The translations under genes were made by a program, and so were the position numbers. A model generated the notes under the pieces. That model was given only the letters and a program-made list of their open reading frames with translations. It was not told the DNA's origin and ran no database searches. Positions 3,903-10,165 of a DNA stretch of 14,304 nucleotides are shown here, one piece after another. Where the stretch lies: contig JAGLNE010000027.1 of the NCBI GenBank assembly GCA_023139655.1, positions 1-14,304 on the forward strand, written 5' to 3'. The first letter of the stretch is position 1. The number at the start of each line of letters is the position of its first letter. This DNA is from Candidatus Parcubacteria bacterium. GTDB lineage: Bacteria > Patescibacteriota > Patescibacteriia > Patescibacteriales > UBA12075.

Positions 3903-4745
3903 ATGAAGAAAAAGAGAATAGGAATATTGATTTCCGGCGGCGGTACCAACATGATGGCGATAGCGAGTGACTGTAAAGCGGGAAAAGTGAACGCTGACGT
4001 GGTTTTTGTTGGCGCTGATAATCCGGATGCCAAAGGTTTAGTCTGGGCAAAAGAAAATGGAATTTCGACTTTCTTTGTTGACTATAAACAGATTAAAATG
4101 CAGGTAATGGATGGTATATATCGTGATATACCCGGCGACGAATTGGTCGAGACAATCCATAAAAAAAGTACTTATGTTCACAGTTGGTATGATAATGATG
4201 AGGCTCGGCAGCTTAGCCATATTCGCTGCAAAGTTGCCGCTGAAAGGGAGTTAATGAGAAAGGTTACTGGTTACAGCATTGATTTATTGGCACTAGCCGG
4301 CTTTATGCAGGTTTTTACGTCAAACTTGATTGATGTTATGAACATGGGATACGATGTACCTCGGATTATGAACATTCACCCAGCTCTTCTGCCCTCTTTC
4401 CCTGGTGTTAATGGTTACGAAGATACTTTTAACTACGGCTGTAAGGTCGGTGGTTGCACGGTTCATTTCGTGGACTATGACGAGGACACTGGCCCGATTA
4501 TTGGCCAGCGGACGTTCCCGATATTTCCGGGAGACACACTAAGCTTGATTAAGAAACGGGGTCTGAAGGAAGAATATCAGTTGTTTCCGGAATGCATTCA
4601 ACAGTTTGCTGAAGGAGGGCTCTGGGTAAGAAGAAACGAAAAAGGAAGAAAAGTGGTTGAAATTACAGAAACCCATAATAATCCTAGCACAGTAGCAGTT
4701 ACTGGGATTGGGGGTGTTATAAGAGACACTATTCCAAGAGTATAA
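3903..4745 (+). CDS. purN: Phosphoribosylglycinamide formyltransferase PurN with an insert and an FGAM-synthase-like tail
   Basis: PurN moves a formyl group from 10-formyl-tetrahydrofolate to GAR, giving FGAR, step 3 of purine synthesis. The N-terminal motif GILISGGGTNMMAI matches the phosphate-binding loop. NIHPALLPSFPG supplies the catalytic pair N157 and H159. D195 in DEDTGP matches the third catalytic residue. The protein has 280 residues against about 210 in E. coli. One extra block of about 44 residues lies around 61-105, before LLALAGFM. The second is the C-terminus: residues 256-275 read ETHNNPSTV, then TGIGGVIRD. This matches a signature of FGAM synthase (PurL), not of formyltransferases. 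The next gene, purL, starts 41 bases after the stop with no terminator, so the two are probably one operon. Function is well supported; the role of the tail is unknown. Confidence 0.9.
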   Translation: MKKKRIGILISGGGTNMMAIASDCKAGKVNADVVFVGADNPDAKGLVWAKENGISTFFVDYKQIKMQVMDGIYRDIPGDELVETIHKKSTYVHSWYDNDEARQLSHIRCKVAAERELMRKVTGYSIDLLALAGFMQVFTSNLIDVMNMGYDVPRIMNIHPALLPSFPGVNGYEDTFNYGCKVGGCTVHFVDYDEDTGPIIGQRTFPIFPGDTLSLIKKRGLKEEYQLFPECIQQFAEGGLWVRRNEKGRKVVEITETHNNPSTVAVTGIGGVIRDTIPRV

Positions 4746-4772
4746 AAATGATAATACAGTTTTATTGAAAGG

Positions 4773-4779
4773 AAAGGAG
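4773..4779 (+). promoter_or_regulatory. Strong ribosome binding site of purL
   Basis: GAAAGGAG-type sequence (AAAGGAG around 4773-4779) lies 7 bases before the ATG at 4787. The surrounding purine-rich run, GAAAGGAAAGGAG, recurs before purM. Confidence 0.78.
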
Positions 4780-4786
4780 ATAAACA

Positions 4787-7700
4787 ATGAAGAAATCCAA
4801 TGAAATGCTCCAGGATTTTTATCGATCAACTGCTTTGAGTAAACCTAAAATAAACAAGTTACTTCTCAAGGCTAGAGCGATTTTTCCCGGGGTTGAATCG
4901 ATCCAAACTGAATTTCAGTTCCTTGTCGATTCAACTCGGCCATTGACAGTGATTGAGGAGGCGGTGCTTACAAACATCCTTTCGATATCGTATGAGCCAA
5001 AAGGTTTTGGGCAAAATTCATTTTTTGGCGATCAAGACTTTGTCGTTCCGATCGGGACTAAACCTTCAAGAGTTTCGCCTTGGTCAACCAGGGTGGTTGC
5101 TGTTTGCCATTCCTCTGGTCTTGAAACAATAACTCGGCTGGAGCGAATTTGTCGTCATAGATTTACCTTCAAAGACGGCAAACAACCTGATCAGAATACC
5201 CAGGATGAGATAAATTTTATTTTTTATGATTTTATGACGGAGCAAATTTATCCTGACCGGCTGGTTACTTTTGAAACAAACATAACGCCAAAAGCAACCG
5301 TCGTGATCGATGTTTTGGGTAAAGGTTTTACCGCCTTAGTAAAAGCAAATGAAGATCTTGGTGCAAACCTCGGAGAAGCTCAACTTCGGCATATCTACAA
5401 CCTTTGCGTTAAGTACCAGAAAAATCCGACTGATGTCTACCTGTTCATGTGTGGCCAGGGGATATCAGAACATAGCCGACATCCGCATTTTAATGCTCGT
5501 CAGCAAGTTGACGGTGTTTTAAAGCCCCACACGTTGATGGAAATGATTGAGTCAACGGTTGAAGTGAACCCGGGTAATAGCATTTCTCATTTTCATGACA
5601 ATAGTTCGGTTATCAAGGGCTTTGACACTCTAGCCTTACGACCGGCAAATCCCGCTGGTCCATCCCCCTATATTGTTAAAAGAGTGAGGTATTGTTTTAC
5701 TTTTAACGGAGAAACCCACAATTACCCGACAACCGTTAATTCCGTGCCCGGGGCCGAAACCGGAACCGGCGGAAGAGTACGTGACAATCTTGCCACCGGT
5801 CGCGGCGGCTTGATCATCGCTGGCACAACCGCCTTTATGGTTGGCTATCTTTTTATTCCCGGCTACGATCTTCCCTGGGAGATCAAGTATGGCCCAGACC
5901 CCCAAGGCATTGAGACCCCCTTGGATATTTTGTGGGGCTCTCATACCGGATCCTATGACTTTGGCAATAAAATCGGGGAGTCGGTAATTTGTGGATCAAC
6001 CCGTTCACACGAGATGATGCTTCAAGCCAGAATTGATGGCGAGTTGACCGATTTTTGGTCAGGTTATCGAAAAACCATCATGTTCACAGCTGGCATCGGT
6101 GAGATTGATGAAGAGCTGATCGAGGGCAGGACTGCGGAAAAAGGCATGAAATTATTCCGTTTCGGCGGTGACTCACACCCGGTGGGTGTTGGCGGTGCCG
6201 GAAGAAGTTCTGATGAGCTTAAAAAGAGCGAAAAAGAGAGAAAATTTGATGAATCAGGTGTTCAGCGTAGTGACGCAATCATGGAAAAACTTGGAATAAA
6301 CGTTGTTCGTGGCTGCGCCGAGCTTGGACCAAAAAATCCAGCAGAAAAATTTCATGATTCAGGGGCTGGAGGGATAGGTAATTGCGGACCCGAAGCACTG
6401 TATCCGGCTGGAGGCACTATGTATCTTGCCCGGATTCCAATGGGCGACAAAACAATGAGTCAATTGGTGTATTTTTCCAATGAATGCCAAGAAGTCATTG
6501 TTGTGCTTATTCGATCGGAAAACGCCGAAATTTTCAAGCAGATTTGCAAGCGCGAAGATTGTCCGGTTCAGGAAATCGGTGATGTTACTGGCGATGGAGT
6601 ATTCACTCTTTATGATGAAAGAGACGATTCCACTCCGGTTAAATTTAACATGGAAGAGCTGCTTGGAAGTGACCTTCCCCAGGAAACCAAAGTTTTGGAA
6701 AGCGCTGAGTTGATCGGCAAGCCCTTTGCGCCACCGGAAGATCTGACTGTTGATGACGCGCTCAACCGGACTATGCGCTTGATTGACGTTGCTTCAAAGC
6801 GCACCATGATCAATAAGGTTGACCGAAGTGTATCGGGGCTTATTGCCCAGCAACAAATGGTTGGTCCTTGTCAATTGCCTTTGGCGGATTACGGAGTGGT
6901 CGCAAACGAAATGCTGCAAACAACCGGTGCCGCCATTTCAATCGGAGAGCAGCCAATTATCGGCCTGCTTAATGCCGGTGCGATGGTGCGGATGAGTATT
7001 TCCGAAATGCTGCTCAATTTGGCCGGTGCCAAATTCCAGAGCATTGAAGCCGTTAATATTTGCGGCAATTGGATGTGGGCAGTCAAAGTTCCTGGCGAAG
7101 GTGTGCGCTTGTTTAATGGGGTTGAAGCAGCAACTGAGTTTGTTAAAAAACTTGGCATACGCATCAATTCCGGGAAGGATTCTCTTAACATGGCTTGTGA
7201 GGCAATTATTAAGAGTCTGATCAAGAAGATCACATCCCCGGGTACCTTTATCGCTTCGGCTTACGTGCCAATGGATGATATTACCGTAAAGGTTACTTCG
7301 GATATAAAGCGTCCGGGCTATTCGCGATTGATGTACCTCGATATCGCCAAGGGCAAGACTCGTATGGGTGGCTCGGTTTTGGGCCGTGTATTTAACATGC
7401 TTGGAAGTACCGCACCCGATATTGATGACGACAAAATGCTCACCAACGCAATCCTTTTTGTGCAGGAATTAATCGAGAAAGAGTTGATTATGGCCTATCA
7501 TGACAGAAGCGATGGTGGCATAATTCAGACGGTGCTTGAAATGGCCTTTTCTGGAAATTGTGGGATCAATCTTGATTTCCGGTCTAAGGACGACAGAAAC
7601 ATCACAGTCCTGAGAACCTTATTCAACCAAGAAGCCGGTTATGTTTTTGAATGCATGCCAAAAACGGAAACTGCGATCAGGAAGATTGCCGTGAAGTATG

Positions 7701-8803
7701 GCTTGAATACCTGGCTCCATAACTTGGGTAAAACAACCAAGAAAAAGGATATTGTGATTTACGCCAACGGGAATACGGTGCTCCAAAAGAGCATGCTGAT
7801 GCTCCGTGATATCTGGGAGACAACCGGTTTTAAAATGGAAGAAACAAAAGCTCCTAATTCTGAAATTGCCAGCAAAGAGAGAAAGGCAGTCTATGACCGG
7901 TCGGGAATGAAGTTCCAGGCCAGCTTTGGTGTACGAAAAACATCATCGCGGATCATTCACGCGAATGATCGGCCAAGAATTGGGATTCTGCGAACCCGCG
8001 GGAGTAATACAGATCGCGAAATGGCTAAAGCATTCTACCTGAACGGATTTGAACCGTGGGATATCAACATGAATGACCTGAAAAAAGGTAAAGTATCCCT
8101 GGAGATTCTTCGTATGATCGCTCTTGTCGGTGGCTTTAGCGACGGTGACATTCCCGGCGCCGGAGTCGGCTGGGGAAGTGAAATTCTTAATCATCCGAGA
8201 TCGAGAGAGGAAATCTTCAATTTTGTCGGCAGGCCAGATACCCTCGGATTCTATGAATGCAATGGCGCTCAAGTCGCGCCGCAAATAGAAGTTGTTCCTT
8301 ATCCGAGTATCCCTTGGTCAAAACAGCCTCGTTTTATCTGGGGCGATTCTCGTAAATTTGAGTCAAGATTCGTCGCGGCAAATATTGTTGCCAGCCCCTG
8401 TGTTTTTACTCAGGGCATGGAAGGAAGTACGCTCGGTATCTGGGTAGCAAACGGAGAAGGTAAGCTTTATTTTCCTGATAAGCACATTCTCGAAGAAGTT
8501 CTGCGGCTTCGCCTTACTCCAATTTTGTACGCCGATGACGACATGAGAACAACGGTAGAGTACCCCTTCAACCCAAGCGGTGGAATGTGTTCGCTCTGCT
8601 CTAAAGACGGCCGTCATCTTGCCTTGATGCCACATGTTGTTCGTACTTGCCTGACCTGGCAATGGGCATATACTCCGTGGGGGTGGCGTAAACGCAAAAC
8701 TTCCCCGTGGGTAAAGTTCTTGCAAAATGCCAGGAACTACCTTGCAAGCACAAATGATCTTTCTGAAAAGCCGCCGGCCGCACTATTAAAGCTGGCAGCG
8801 TAA
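4787..8803 (+). CDS. purL: Phosphoribosylformylglycinamidine synthase PurL, large fused type with divergent glutaminase domain
   Basis: The enzyme turns FGAR, glutamine and ATP into FGAM, step 4 of purine synthesis. It has 1338 residues, close to the large single-chain form (about 1300 in E. coli). In order: a PurS-like N-terminal region (to about 150); a linker with SEHSRH (227-232, usually SEHCRH); the first synthetase half with GETHNYPTTV and TGTGGRVRD (308-333, usually ETHNHP) and HDSGAGG (523-529); a second half with the DRSVSGLIAQQQMVGPCQLP and SGKDSLNM motifs; and a C-terminal glutamine amidotransferase from about 1062. There GGFSDGD (1115-1121), C1158 in YECNGAQ and H1283 in MPHVVR are recognisable. 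The triad glutamate, normally in PHPER, is V1285, and the usual glycine two before the cysteine is missing. Start and frame are clear. Ammonia supply by its own glutaminase is doubtful. Confidence 0.93.
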   Translation: MKKSNEMLQDFYRSTALSKPKINKLLLKARAIFPGVESIQTEFQFLVDSTRPLTVIEEAVLTNILSISYEPKGFGQNSFFGDQDFVVPIGTKPSRVSPWSTRVVAVCHSSGLETITRLERICRHRFTFKDGKQPDQNTQDEINFIFYDFMTEQIYPDRLVTFETNITPKATVVIDVLGKGFTALVKANEDLGANLGEAQLRHIYNLCVKYQKNPTDVYLFMCGQGISEHSRHPHFNARQQVDGVLKPHTLMEMIESTVEVNPGNSISHFHDNSSVIKGFDTLALRPANPAGPSPYIVKRVRYCFTFNGETHNYPTTVNSVPGAETGTGGRVRDNLATGRGGLIIAGTTAFMVGYLFIPGYDLPWEIKYGPDPQGIETPLDILWGSHTGSYDFGNKIGESVICGSTRSHEMMLQARIDGELTDFWSGYRKTIMFTAGIGEIDEELIEGRTAEKGMKLFRFGGDSHPVGVGGAGRSSDELKKSEKERKFDESGVQRSDAIMEKLGINVVRGCAELGPKNPAEKFHDSGAGGIGNCGPEALYPAGGTMYLARIPMGDKTMSQLVYFSNECQEVIVVLIRSENAEIFKQICKREDCPVQEIGDVTGDGVFTLYDERDDSTPVKFNMEELLGSDLPQETKVLESAELIGKPFAPPEDLTVDDALNRTMRLIDVASKRTMINKVDRSVSGLIAQQQMVGPCQLPLADYGVVANEMLQTTGAAISIGEQPIIGLLNAGAMVRMSISEMLLNLAGAKFQSIEAVNICGNWMWAVKVPGEGVRLFNGVEAATEFVKKLGIRINSGKDSLNMACEAIIKSLIKKITSPGTFIASAYVPMDDITVKVTSDIKRPGYSRLMYLDIAKGKTRMGGSVLGRVFNMLGSTAPDIDDDKMLTNAILFVQELIEKELIMAYHDRSDGGIIQTVLEMAFSGNCGINLDFRSKDDRNITVLRTLFNQEAGYVFECMPKTETAIRKIAVKYGLNTWLHNLGKTTKKKDIVIYANGNTVLQKSMLMLRDIWETTGFKMEETKAPNSEIASKERKAVYDRSGMKFQASFGVRKTSSRIIHANDRPRIGILRTRGSNTDREMAKAFYLNGFEPWDINMNDLKKGKVSLEILRMIALVGGFSDGDIPGAGVGWGSEILNHPRSREEIFNFVGRPDTLGFYECNGAQVAPQIEVVPYPSIPWSKQPRFIWGDSRKFESRFVAANIVASPCVFTQGMEGSTLGIWVANGEGKLYFPDKHILEEVLRLRLTPILYADDDMRTTVEYPFNPSGGMCSLCSKDGRHLALMPHVVRTCLTWQWAYTPWGWRKRKTSPWVKFLQNARNYLASTNDLSEKPPAALLKLAA

Positions 8804-8974: not shown

Positions 8975-10165
8975 ATGGCAGAAAAAGATTTGTATAAGGA
9001 GCTTGGTGTGGATGCAGCCAAAAAAAGCGTCAGAAAAGCGTTCACCAGGCGCGTCGACAATGATTATCCGGGTGCATTTGTTAATATTATAATCGATCCT
9101 GACGATTCGAGATACGGCAAAACTCAGCACAACGACGGCGACGGCAGTAAATTCGTACAGCGATTACTTATTTTTCAAGAGACCGGAAACATCGAAGTTG
9201 TTCGTGGAGCGGTCGATGATGCTTGGGAAATGAATATGGGCGATATTGCAGCCAGTGGTTTCGTTTTCGGAACGATTATGGTTACCGATGTTATCAATAT
9301 CAAAGACATCGAGGACAAGGTACCCAAAGACGAGATCATGGAGCAGGTTGCTATTCGTATGGCCGAATTAAGGGACCTTTATCGTTCATACGGGTTCAAT
9401 ATCTACTGGCTGGGTGGCGAAACTGCCGATTTGCCAGATCAGGTACATAGTATTGTCTTTGATGTTTGTGTTAATGCTCGGGCGCTTCGGAAAGACATTG
9501 TCATCGGTAATGTGCAGGACAACGATAAAATCTTCGGTTTCGTTAGCACCGGTCAGGCTACTTGGGAGAATGAAATCAATTCCGGTTTGATGTCGAATGG
9601 CGCGACTCTGGGCCGAACTTATCTCATGCGGAAGGTTTATACCGAAAAATATCCGTTTTTGATTCGTCCAGAAGGCTCTTACAAAGGGAGGTTCCTGGTC
9701 GGCGAATGCGACGATGGTTTATCTGGAATGTCAGTTAGTGATGCTCTGATTTCGCCCACCAGGCATTGGTCGATACTTATCAGGCTGCTTCTAGAAAAGT
9801 TGCGGGAAAAAGGTATTTCCCACATGCTTCACGGAATCAGTATGAATACTGGTGGTGGAGCTACAAAGATCGGGCATGTCGGGAGTGGCATATTGTACAA
9901 AAAGAAAATGCCTGCACCTCCCGAATTGTTCCAGCTCATTCAAAGGGAATCCGGCTCAGATTGGGAAAAAATGTTTCGTGACTTCAATTGTGGTATTGGA
10001 ATTGATATTGTCGGTGAAGACAATCTAGAATTTGAAACGGCGTTGTATGAATTAGCCAATGATACCAATATTGCCTGTCTTGAGCTCGGGGTATGTGAAG
10101 AGAGAGATAAGGGCGACAATAAAGTTGAATTGGATACGCCATACGGCCTTTTCGACAATTATTAA
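8975..10165 (+). CDS. purM: Phosphoribosylformylglycinamidine cyclo-ligase (AIR synthase) PurM, divergent
   Basis: PurM closes the imidazole ring of FGAM with ATP to give AIR, step 5 of purine synthesis. The protein has 396 residues, longer than the usual 345 or so. The N-terminal YKELGVD matches the family start. HNDGDGSK (52-59) stands where most PurM have GTDGVGTK; the aspartate, glycine and lysine are kept. GGETADLP (147-154) matches GGETAEMP. SGLMSNGATLGR matches the SNG motif but follows about ten extra residues. NTGGGATK and FNCGIGID (337-344) match the C-terminal ATP-side motifs. The PurM/PurL fold is shared with HypE, SelD and ThiL, but the GGETA and FNxGIG motifs and the neighbouring purN and purL favour PurM. 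It has its own promoter and terminator, so it is expressed apart from purN-purL. Confidence 0.87.
   Translation: MAEKDLYKELGVDAAKKSVRKAFTRRVDNDYPGAFVNIIIDPDDSRYGKTQHNDGDGSKFVQRLLIFQETGNIEVVRGAVDDAWEMNMGDIAASGFVFGTIMVTDVINIKDIEDKVPKDEIMEQVAIRMAELRDLYRSYGFNIYWLGGETADLPDQVHSIVFDVCVNARALRKDIVIGNVQDNDKIFGFVSTGQATWENEINSGLMSNGATLGRTYLMRKVYTEKYPFLIRPEGSYKGRFLVGECDDGLSGMSVSDALISPTRHWSILIRLLLEKLREKGISHMLHGISMNTGGGATKIGHVGSGILYKKKMPAPPELFQLIQRESGSDWEKMFRDFNCGIGIDIVGEDNLEFETALYELANDTNIACLELGVCEERDKGDNKVELDTPYGLFDNY

Follow-up and report, generated by a model that had tools for sequence, protein, structure and literature searches.

The phosphoribosylglycinamide formyltransferase (PurN) encoded in the window, by which we mean the whole stretch of 14,304 nucleotides that was analysed, ends in a short peptide that resembles part of FGAM synthase (PurL). 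This tail is a real feature, recurring as it does in relatives, and probably a useful one, found in a rare set of bacteria with tiny genomes. The reading that we favour, if only tentatively, is that the tail is a selected C-terminal motif imitating an element of FGAM synthase, with the most likely role of bringing PurN to PurL, or to the partner surface of PurL, for the handover of FGAR. Selection, docking on PurL and FGAR handover are all putative.

The window PurN and the PurL likeness of its tail

By profile and by fold, the window PurN is an ordinary member of its family. It scores 160.4 bits against TIGR00639 (curated cut-off 150.1), with residues 4–239 aligned to positions 1–188 of the 192 in the model, and the profile match ends at residue 239, before the tail. 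Its fold is that of GAR transformylase, the best Foldseek matches being 3auf, 4ew1, 1meo and 1cde (TM by target 0.86–0.88), and N157, H159 and D195, which we take to be the catalytic residues, are invariant in the PurN alignment. After the strand at residues 250–254 the protein continues as TETHNNPSTVAVTGIGGVIRDTIPRV and then reaches its stop codon; the tail itself, ETHNNPSTVAVTGIGGVIRD, comprises residues 256–275 (positions 4668–4727), the codon for E256 lying at 4668. The arrangement is not a PurN-PurL fusion, in which a PurL domain would be joined to PurN: PurN ends at 4745, and purL is a separate ORF (Table 1).

Table 1. Features of the purN-purL region, in window coordinates
Feature	Position	Strand	Basis
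purN, phosphoribosylglycinamide formyltransferase, long type (280 aa)	3903..4745	+	TIGR00639, PF00551, Foldseek
Last ordered PurN element, strand 250–254 (RKVVEI region); the tail begins after it	4650..4664	+	DSSP on AlphaFold2 model
First half of tail, ETHNNPSTV, like PurL ETHNHPSAI	4668..4694	+	NCBIfam/PDB searches, motif counts; low model confidence
Second half of tail, TGIGGVIRD, like PurL TGxGGxxRD	4701..4727	+	NCBIfam/PDB searches, P0121, pLDDT
purL, large-type FGAM synthase, 41-nt gap after purN	4787..8803	+	TIGR01735, 1135.1 bits (cut-off 1123.05)
PurL segment resembled by the tail, ETHNYPTTVNSVPGAETGTGGRVRD, PurL residues 309–333	5711..5785	+	Sequence comparison

The preliminary description had matched PurN residues 256–275 with PurL residues 309–333. 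Both its coordinates and its residues are correct, except that the PurN copy is shorter by five residues (20 versus 25) rather than four, and the match of the PurN C-terminus to PurL is borne out by searches of NCBIfam and the PDB, which return PurL only. When the last 41 residues of PurN are compared with 18,950 NCBIfam models, all four matches at E ≤ 10 are to PurL; the best is TIGR01736, the small-type PurL (E = 7e-4, 17.9 bits, model positions 69–102), and the large-type model TIGR01735 scores 11.5 bits (E = 0.035). All five PDB sequences matched by the last 28 residues at E ≤ 10 are likewise PurL, each weakly (best E = 0.16). In one PurL chain from T. maritima, 2hs0, the residues aligned to the tail span E70 to D94, H72 included, and these presumably hold Mg-ATP and act in catalysis. 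The tail thus has both PurL elements, ETHN.P and TGxGGxxRD, with a five-residue deletion between them, and it falls far from full-length membership, its 17.9 bits over positions 69–102 of 718 comparing with a cut-off of 525.75.

The interpretation offered in the preliminary description holds as regards the resemblance to PurL, which is common to other PurNs, but a recent copy of the adjoining purL is an unlikely source, as the tail and its own PurL differ both in codons and at variable positions. Where the neighbouring purL is known, in three cases, the tail departs from the PurL of the same genome in this way (NNPSTV against NYPTTV, NNPCC against NFPSGV, and NHPNAI against NSPTQK). A recent copy is unlikely because tails do not follow the PurL of their own genome at the variable residues, and also because the window tail fits the small-type PurL better than the large-type one whose gene follows purN. 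Nor is an assembly error likely, since the PurN protein is present on two contigs (possibly not independent assemblies) and other proteins have related tails.

Recurrence and motif-like behaviour of the tail

Absence of the tail from all close relatives had been named beforehand as grounds for abandoning the idea; this does not apply, as other PurNs share the tail. The accompanying statement that this segment is foreign to formyltransferases is correct for the family models but does not hold for every PurN of the clade. We compared 194 PurNs, the window PurN included, which are the union of two lists of the 120 best homologues (8,000 candidates scored for each). The strict pattern [ED]xHNxP occurs within the last 45 residues of 13 of them, where shuffling leads one to expect 0.015, and in none of the 194 bodies; looser variants bring the number of tails to 16, but neither 13 nor 16 of 194 is a population frequency, because the lists are best-120 lists and the second query was made from tail bearers. 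Beyond the 16, G915 has a further tail, in a PurN almost identical to P0005, and G473 a broken copy.

Among the examples are AEVHNHPSAT (P0003), AEIHNTPSTI (P0060), TETHNSPCAV (P0031) and METHNNPRAI (P0009). P0121, which is 52% identical to the window PurN over 99% of the query, ends in GEIHNFPASYPVTGVGGRNRD..., with both halves of the tail and the same step of 11 residues from E to T as in the window. On its own the P0121 tail finds no PurL model in NCBIfam and no PurL in the PDB, and its weight lies in the position-by-position match to the window tail. Of eight other tails compared with the family models, five, P0121 among them, match none, two (P0003 and P0031) match only PurL models, and those weakly (E 0.08–0.11 and 0.05, respectively), and P0007 matches only ribosomal protein L14; two tail-less control C-termini match no family model. 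Used as a search query, the C-terminal region of P0003 returns nothing beyond P0003 and two PurNs without a tail. P0002, which at 78% identity over 87% of the query is the nearest relative found, has no tail, and in some relatives PurN has a different short extension past the same strand (IAQIDIRSSDD, IAEININSRED and IAQIH). The C-terminus of P0032, VVVITEAHK, looks like a decayed or shortened tail.

The PurN C-termini were also scanned, independently of the motif, with a position matrix built from seven PurL 9-mers. The window tail scores 25.1, and the best controls are 16.5 among 38,800 shuffled PurN C-termini, 7.5 among 194 reversed ones and 9.0 among 1,251 C-termini of unrelated ORFs. The 12 best-scoring of the 194 listed PurNs are all tail bearers, with scores of at least 14.2, and their scores are reached by between 0 and 7 of the 38,800 shuffles, up to 7 at the lowest. 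The tail-less P0139 comes 13th (12.2), above three weak tails, and P0055, whose motif ends after 8 residues, is absent from the best 26. A chance origin of the tail is rejected by the NCBIfam and PDB matches, the shuffling count and these matrix controls.

The tail behaves like a C-terminal short linear motif, being short, conserved, predicted to be disordered and tolerant of position. Counted from the E, eight of the 13 strict tails are exactly 9 residues long, as is ETHNHPSAI in PurL; three have 8 or 10 residues, and two long ones 25 and 33. P0009, P0010, P0022 and P0031 have extra residues between the strand and the motif, which is still C-terminal. The AlphaFold2 model of the window PurN (66 PurN sequences) has a mean pLDDT of 89.5 and an ordered body, and pLDDT falls below 50 at tail residues 260–268, 270–275 and 277–279. 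The confidence is intermediate in the short tail of P0060, where the last ten residues average a pLDDT of 69 and have no secondary structure, most other blocks exceeding 90. Across bodies that are about 52–57% identical, E is retained in 14, H in 15, N in 13 and P in 15 of 15 tails, a conservation that is partly circular because the tails were selected by that motif. The codons at the same tail residues differ among the window, G473 and G915, and the constraint therefore acts on the protein.

Three other explanations were considered and rejected. An RNA-level role finds no favour with the predicted fold of positions 4660–4800 (z = −1.57, with 12 of 200 shuffles as good) or with the use of different synonymous codons at the motif; an Rfam search of the window at gathering scores gave no match. 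As for a general protein tag, the back-translated pattern GARANNCAYAAYNNNCC, which permits only some residues at position 2, occurs in the G000 sequence examined (completeness 89.65) only in purN and purL, and in three tail genomes it occurs in purN, purL and four other sites, never at the C-terminus of a long ORF. Repair in trans of a damaged PurL is rejected in that the window PurL retains ETHNYP and passes TIGR01735.

Spread of the tail and its genomic setting

On a PurN tree of 115 rows (made up of 103 of the 194 proteins and the PurNs of 12 out of 15 loci, L065, L093 and L105 being left out), the tail changes state 9 times, at least 7 of them forced by well-supported branches, as compared with an average of 15.3 for shuffled labels. 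The tail therefore clusters, yet it has been gained or lost repeatedly or has moved sideways. Between the window PurN (P0001) and P0002, identity is 97% in alignment columns 90–150 and 35% in columns 240–270, a mosaic pointing to intragenic recombination between purN genes. For P0121, tails occur in none of the eight nearest bodies and in four of the eight nearest C-terminal segments (206–254). The window PurN has tails in four of eight on both counts, its nearest segment (P0024) being tail-less, and because body and C-terminal neighbours give equal counts the cassette evidence for the window PurN is the mosaic. A short GRK hairpin is present in 15 of 16 tail bearers and in 22 of 178 tail-less PurNs, in a statistic that ignores relatedness. 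From these patterns the tail probably travels between purN genes as part of an exchangeable 3'-end cassette.

The mosaic, the neighbours of P0121, the hairpin and the frequent gains or losses on the tree all count for the strongest rival to our reading, a serious one, although we consider it somewhat unlikely. It holds that illegitimate recombination, once or a few times, joined the 3' end of purN, with its strand KVVxI, to the PurL strand and its ETHN.P, and that 3'-end exchange then spread a functionless piece. Residues 5–26 of the P0003 C-terminus align with positions 62–83 of the PurL model in equal spans, strand included and with no net gap, and the junction of strand and tail in P0003 is a plausible crossover point. 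Against such a relic, a useless tail should not retain E, H, N and P between diverged bodies, with the partial circularity already mentioned; the 9-residue ending is too frequent, and a simple fusion relic explains it poorly; the motif remains terminal despite the residues inserted upstream; and codons differ at the conserved residues.

The purL gene lies directly 3' of purN in all three tail genomes that could be read (G000, G473 and G915, with gaps of 41, 22 and 18 nt) versus two of eight tail-less genomes (G800 and, after about 0.3 kb, G803). This contrast is suggestive only, as it is not significant (0.06) and becomes weaker if G387 is counted. In the other tail-less genomes, purL is elsewhere in G431, a weak match lies on another contig in G801, and no PurL match was found in G379, G638 or G845; the purN contig of G801 has only 3,056 bases, and its non-adjacency rests on no clear PurL having been found. 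The comparison, of 11 genomes, leaves out G049, G059, G070 and G844, whose matches are short or weak; the PurN of G844 is without the tail. In G387 (L093, 9070–9603), a 177-aa ORF 3' of a tail-less purN matches only positions 548–717 of the PurL model and has an internal stop; it is perhaps a remnant of PurL or PurM. G803 shares its order set with the Moraniibacteriota genome G800.

PurL itself is of the large type in G000 and G473 and of the small type, with a separate PurQ, in G915. In G473 (L094, 6137–10544), purN has an internal deletion, a frame change and an in-frame TAG, and purL is split into two overlapping ORFs; both genes look broken, and decay or poor assembly would fit equally. 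At the C-terminus of the window PurL (8363–8800) the glutaminase motif reads MPHVVRT, as compared with MPHPER in the PurLs of L106 and L107 and MPHPIDR in that of L094; in the two large PurLs encoded after a purN with the tail, what we take to be the Glu of the glutaminase triad is absent or displaced. Further downstream in the window, at 8975–10165, a PurM-like ORF of 396 aa scores 48.9 bits against TIGR00878 (cut-off 236.35) with no Pfam match at 0.001, and judging by its sequence it is a very diverged AIR synthase.

In the phylum of the window genome, a patescibacterium, this PurN is rare: it was found in 4 of 379 genomes, three of these four matches being partial and weak. The counts are 5 of 111 genomes for the order and 3 of 380 for the class, with 6 of 128 genomes in the order of G800 and 3 of 383 in the class of G915, each set having its own cut-off and the sets overlapping. 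Searches of two further classes found PurN in 0 of 294 and 0 of 16 genomes, an empty answer that alone shows little. Of 80 loci, mostly from Desulfobacterota, 77 have a complete purN ORF with its stop codon, and none of these 77 has the tail; in L036 and L071 the ORF is cut, and the purN of L065, read by eye, is without the tail. A scan of viral contigs for relatives yielded one weak relative.

Readings of the tail and comparison with known systems

Under the docking interpretation, an exchangeable 3' end of purN would encode a tail that hangs flexibly off the last β-strand of PurN and imitates the catalytic ETHN.P of FGAM synthase, and in two proteins TGxGGxxRD as well. Selection would retain the tail in part of a largely patescibacterial clade. 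The tail may then recruit PurN to PurL, or to whatever surface this element of PurL ordinarily contacts, and FGAR from step 3 could be passed on to step 4. Evidence against docking is that the tail is patchy, with the forced changes on the tree, that P0002 is without it, and that G800 and G803 have an adjacent purL and no tail. The idea of a docked pair is further weakened by the presence of different PurL types in the tail genomes, which argues against tight co-evolution of the two proteins.

A more specific proposal, which we regard as unlikely, is substrate-passing by active-site mimicry, in which the tail would copy the catalytic signature of the next enzyme, would have been built by 3'-end recombination, and would be common to reduced bacteria with different types of PurL.

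Less likely still are two alternatives in which PurL is not the partner. The tail might be a C-terminal signal that has nothing to do with PurL, serving for example in turnover or in contact with another partner, and that converged on E.HN.P, the likeness of the second half in the window being secondary. Related PurNs do carry other short extensions after the same strand, and five of the eight other tails reach no family model; nevertheless, two diverged tails also have TGxGGxxRD at the same spacing, and the window tail matches only PurL in NCBIfam and the PDB, and we think this reading quite improbable. It is more doubtful again that the PurL-like peptide folds over the active site of PurN, or holds a PurN dimer or FGAR, as an autoregulatory lid: the enzyme that ends in the tail is indeed the one producing FGAR, and the PurL residues that the tail imitates presumably line the site receiving FGAR and Mg-ATP, but monomer models give the tail low confidence and no secondary structure, and the length of the linker before the motif varies.

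If the tail does mimic the catalytic signature of the next enzyme, it would represent a new way of coupling successive pathway steps; as a relic, it would be an example of a conserved enzyme gaining and spreading a piece of its operon neighbour. We found no description of a PurN tail in open-access papers, although one may be published elsewhere, and the pertinent part of PMC3815217 contains nothing on these residues. Association of PurL with other enzymes of the pathway in an E. coli two-hybrid system is attributed to Gedeon et al. (2023b) in the relevant part of PMC10912719, where PurL is also said to have been proposed as a scaffold and the association of bacterial purine enzymes to have been debated since. 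Section 19 of that paper, on the bacterial purine-enzyme network, mentions no linear motif or active-site mimic. A removable motif of nine residues makes the question of purine-enzyme association testable.

Compared with the PurN family (TIGR00639, PF00551), the window PurN has the same body, fold and NIHP active-site region; solved PurN chains have 184–229 residues, and the window PurN has 280, with its PurL-like tail beyond the family models. With PurL, small (TIGR01736) or large (TIGR01735), the tail shares the nine residues of the ETHN.P.. element, to which the window tail and that of P0121 add TGxGGxxRD. The tail is nonetheless not an FGAM synthase, because only 20 of more than 700 PurL residues are present, interrupted by the deletion between the halves, and the rest of PurL is absent. 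In eukaryotes, GARS-AIRS-GART consists of fused purine enzymes. Together with TrifGART, a fused purine enzyme covered in part of PMC10912719, it likewise joins purine steps physically. Unlike these fused enzymes, the window PurN bears no extra enzyme domain, only a peptide that would imitate the next enzyme.
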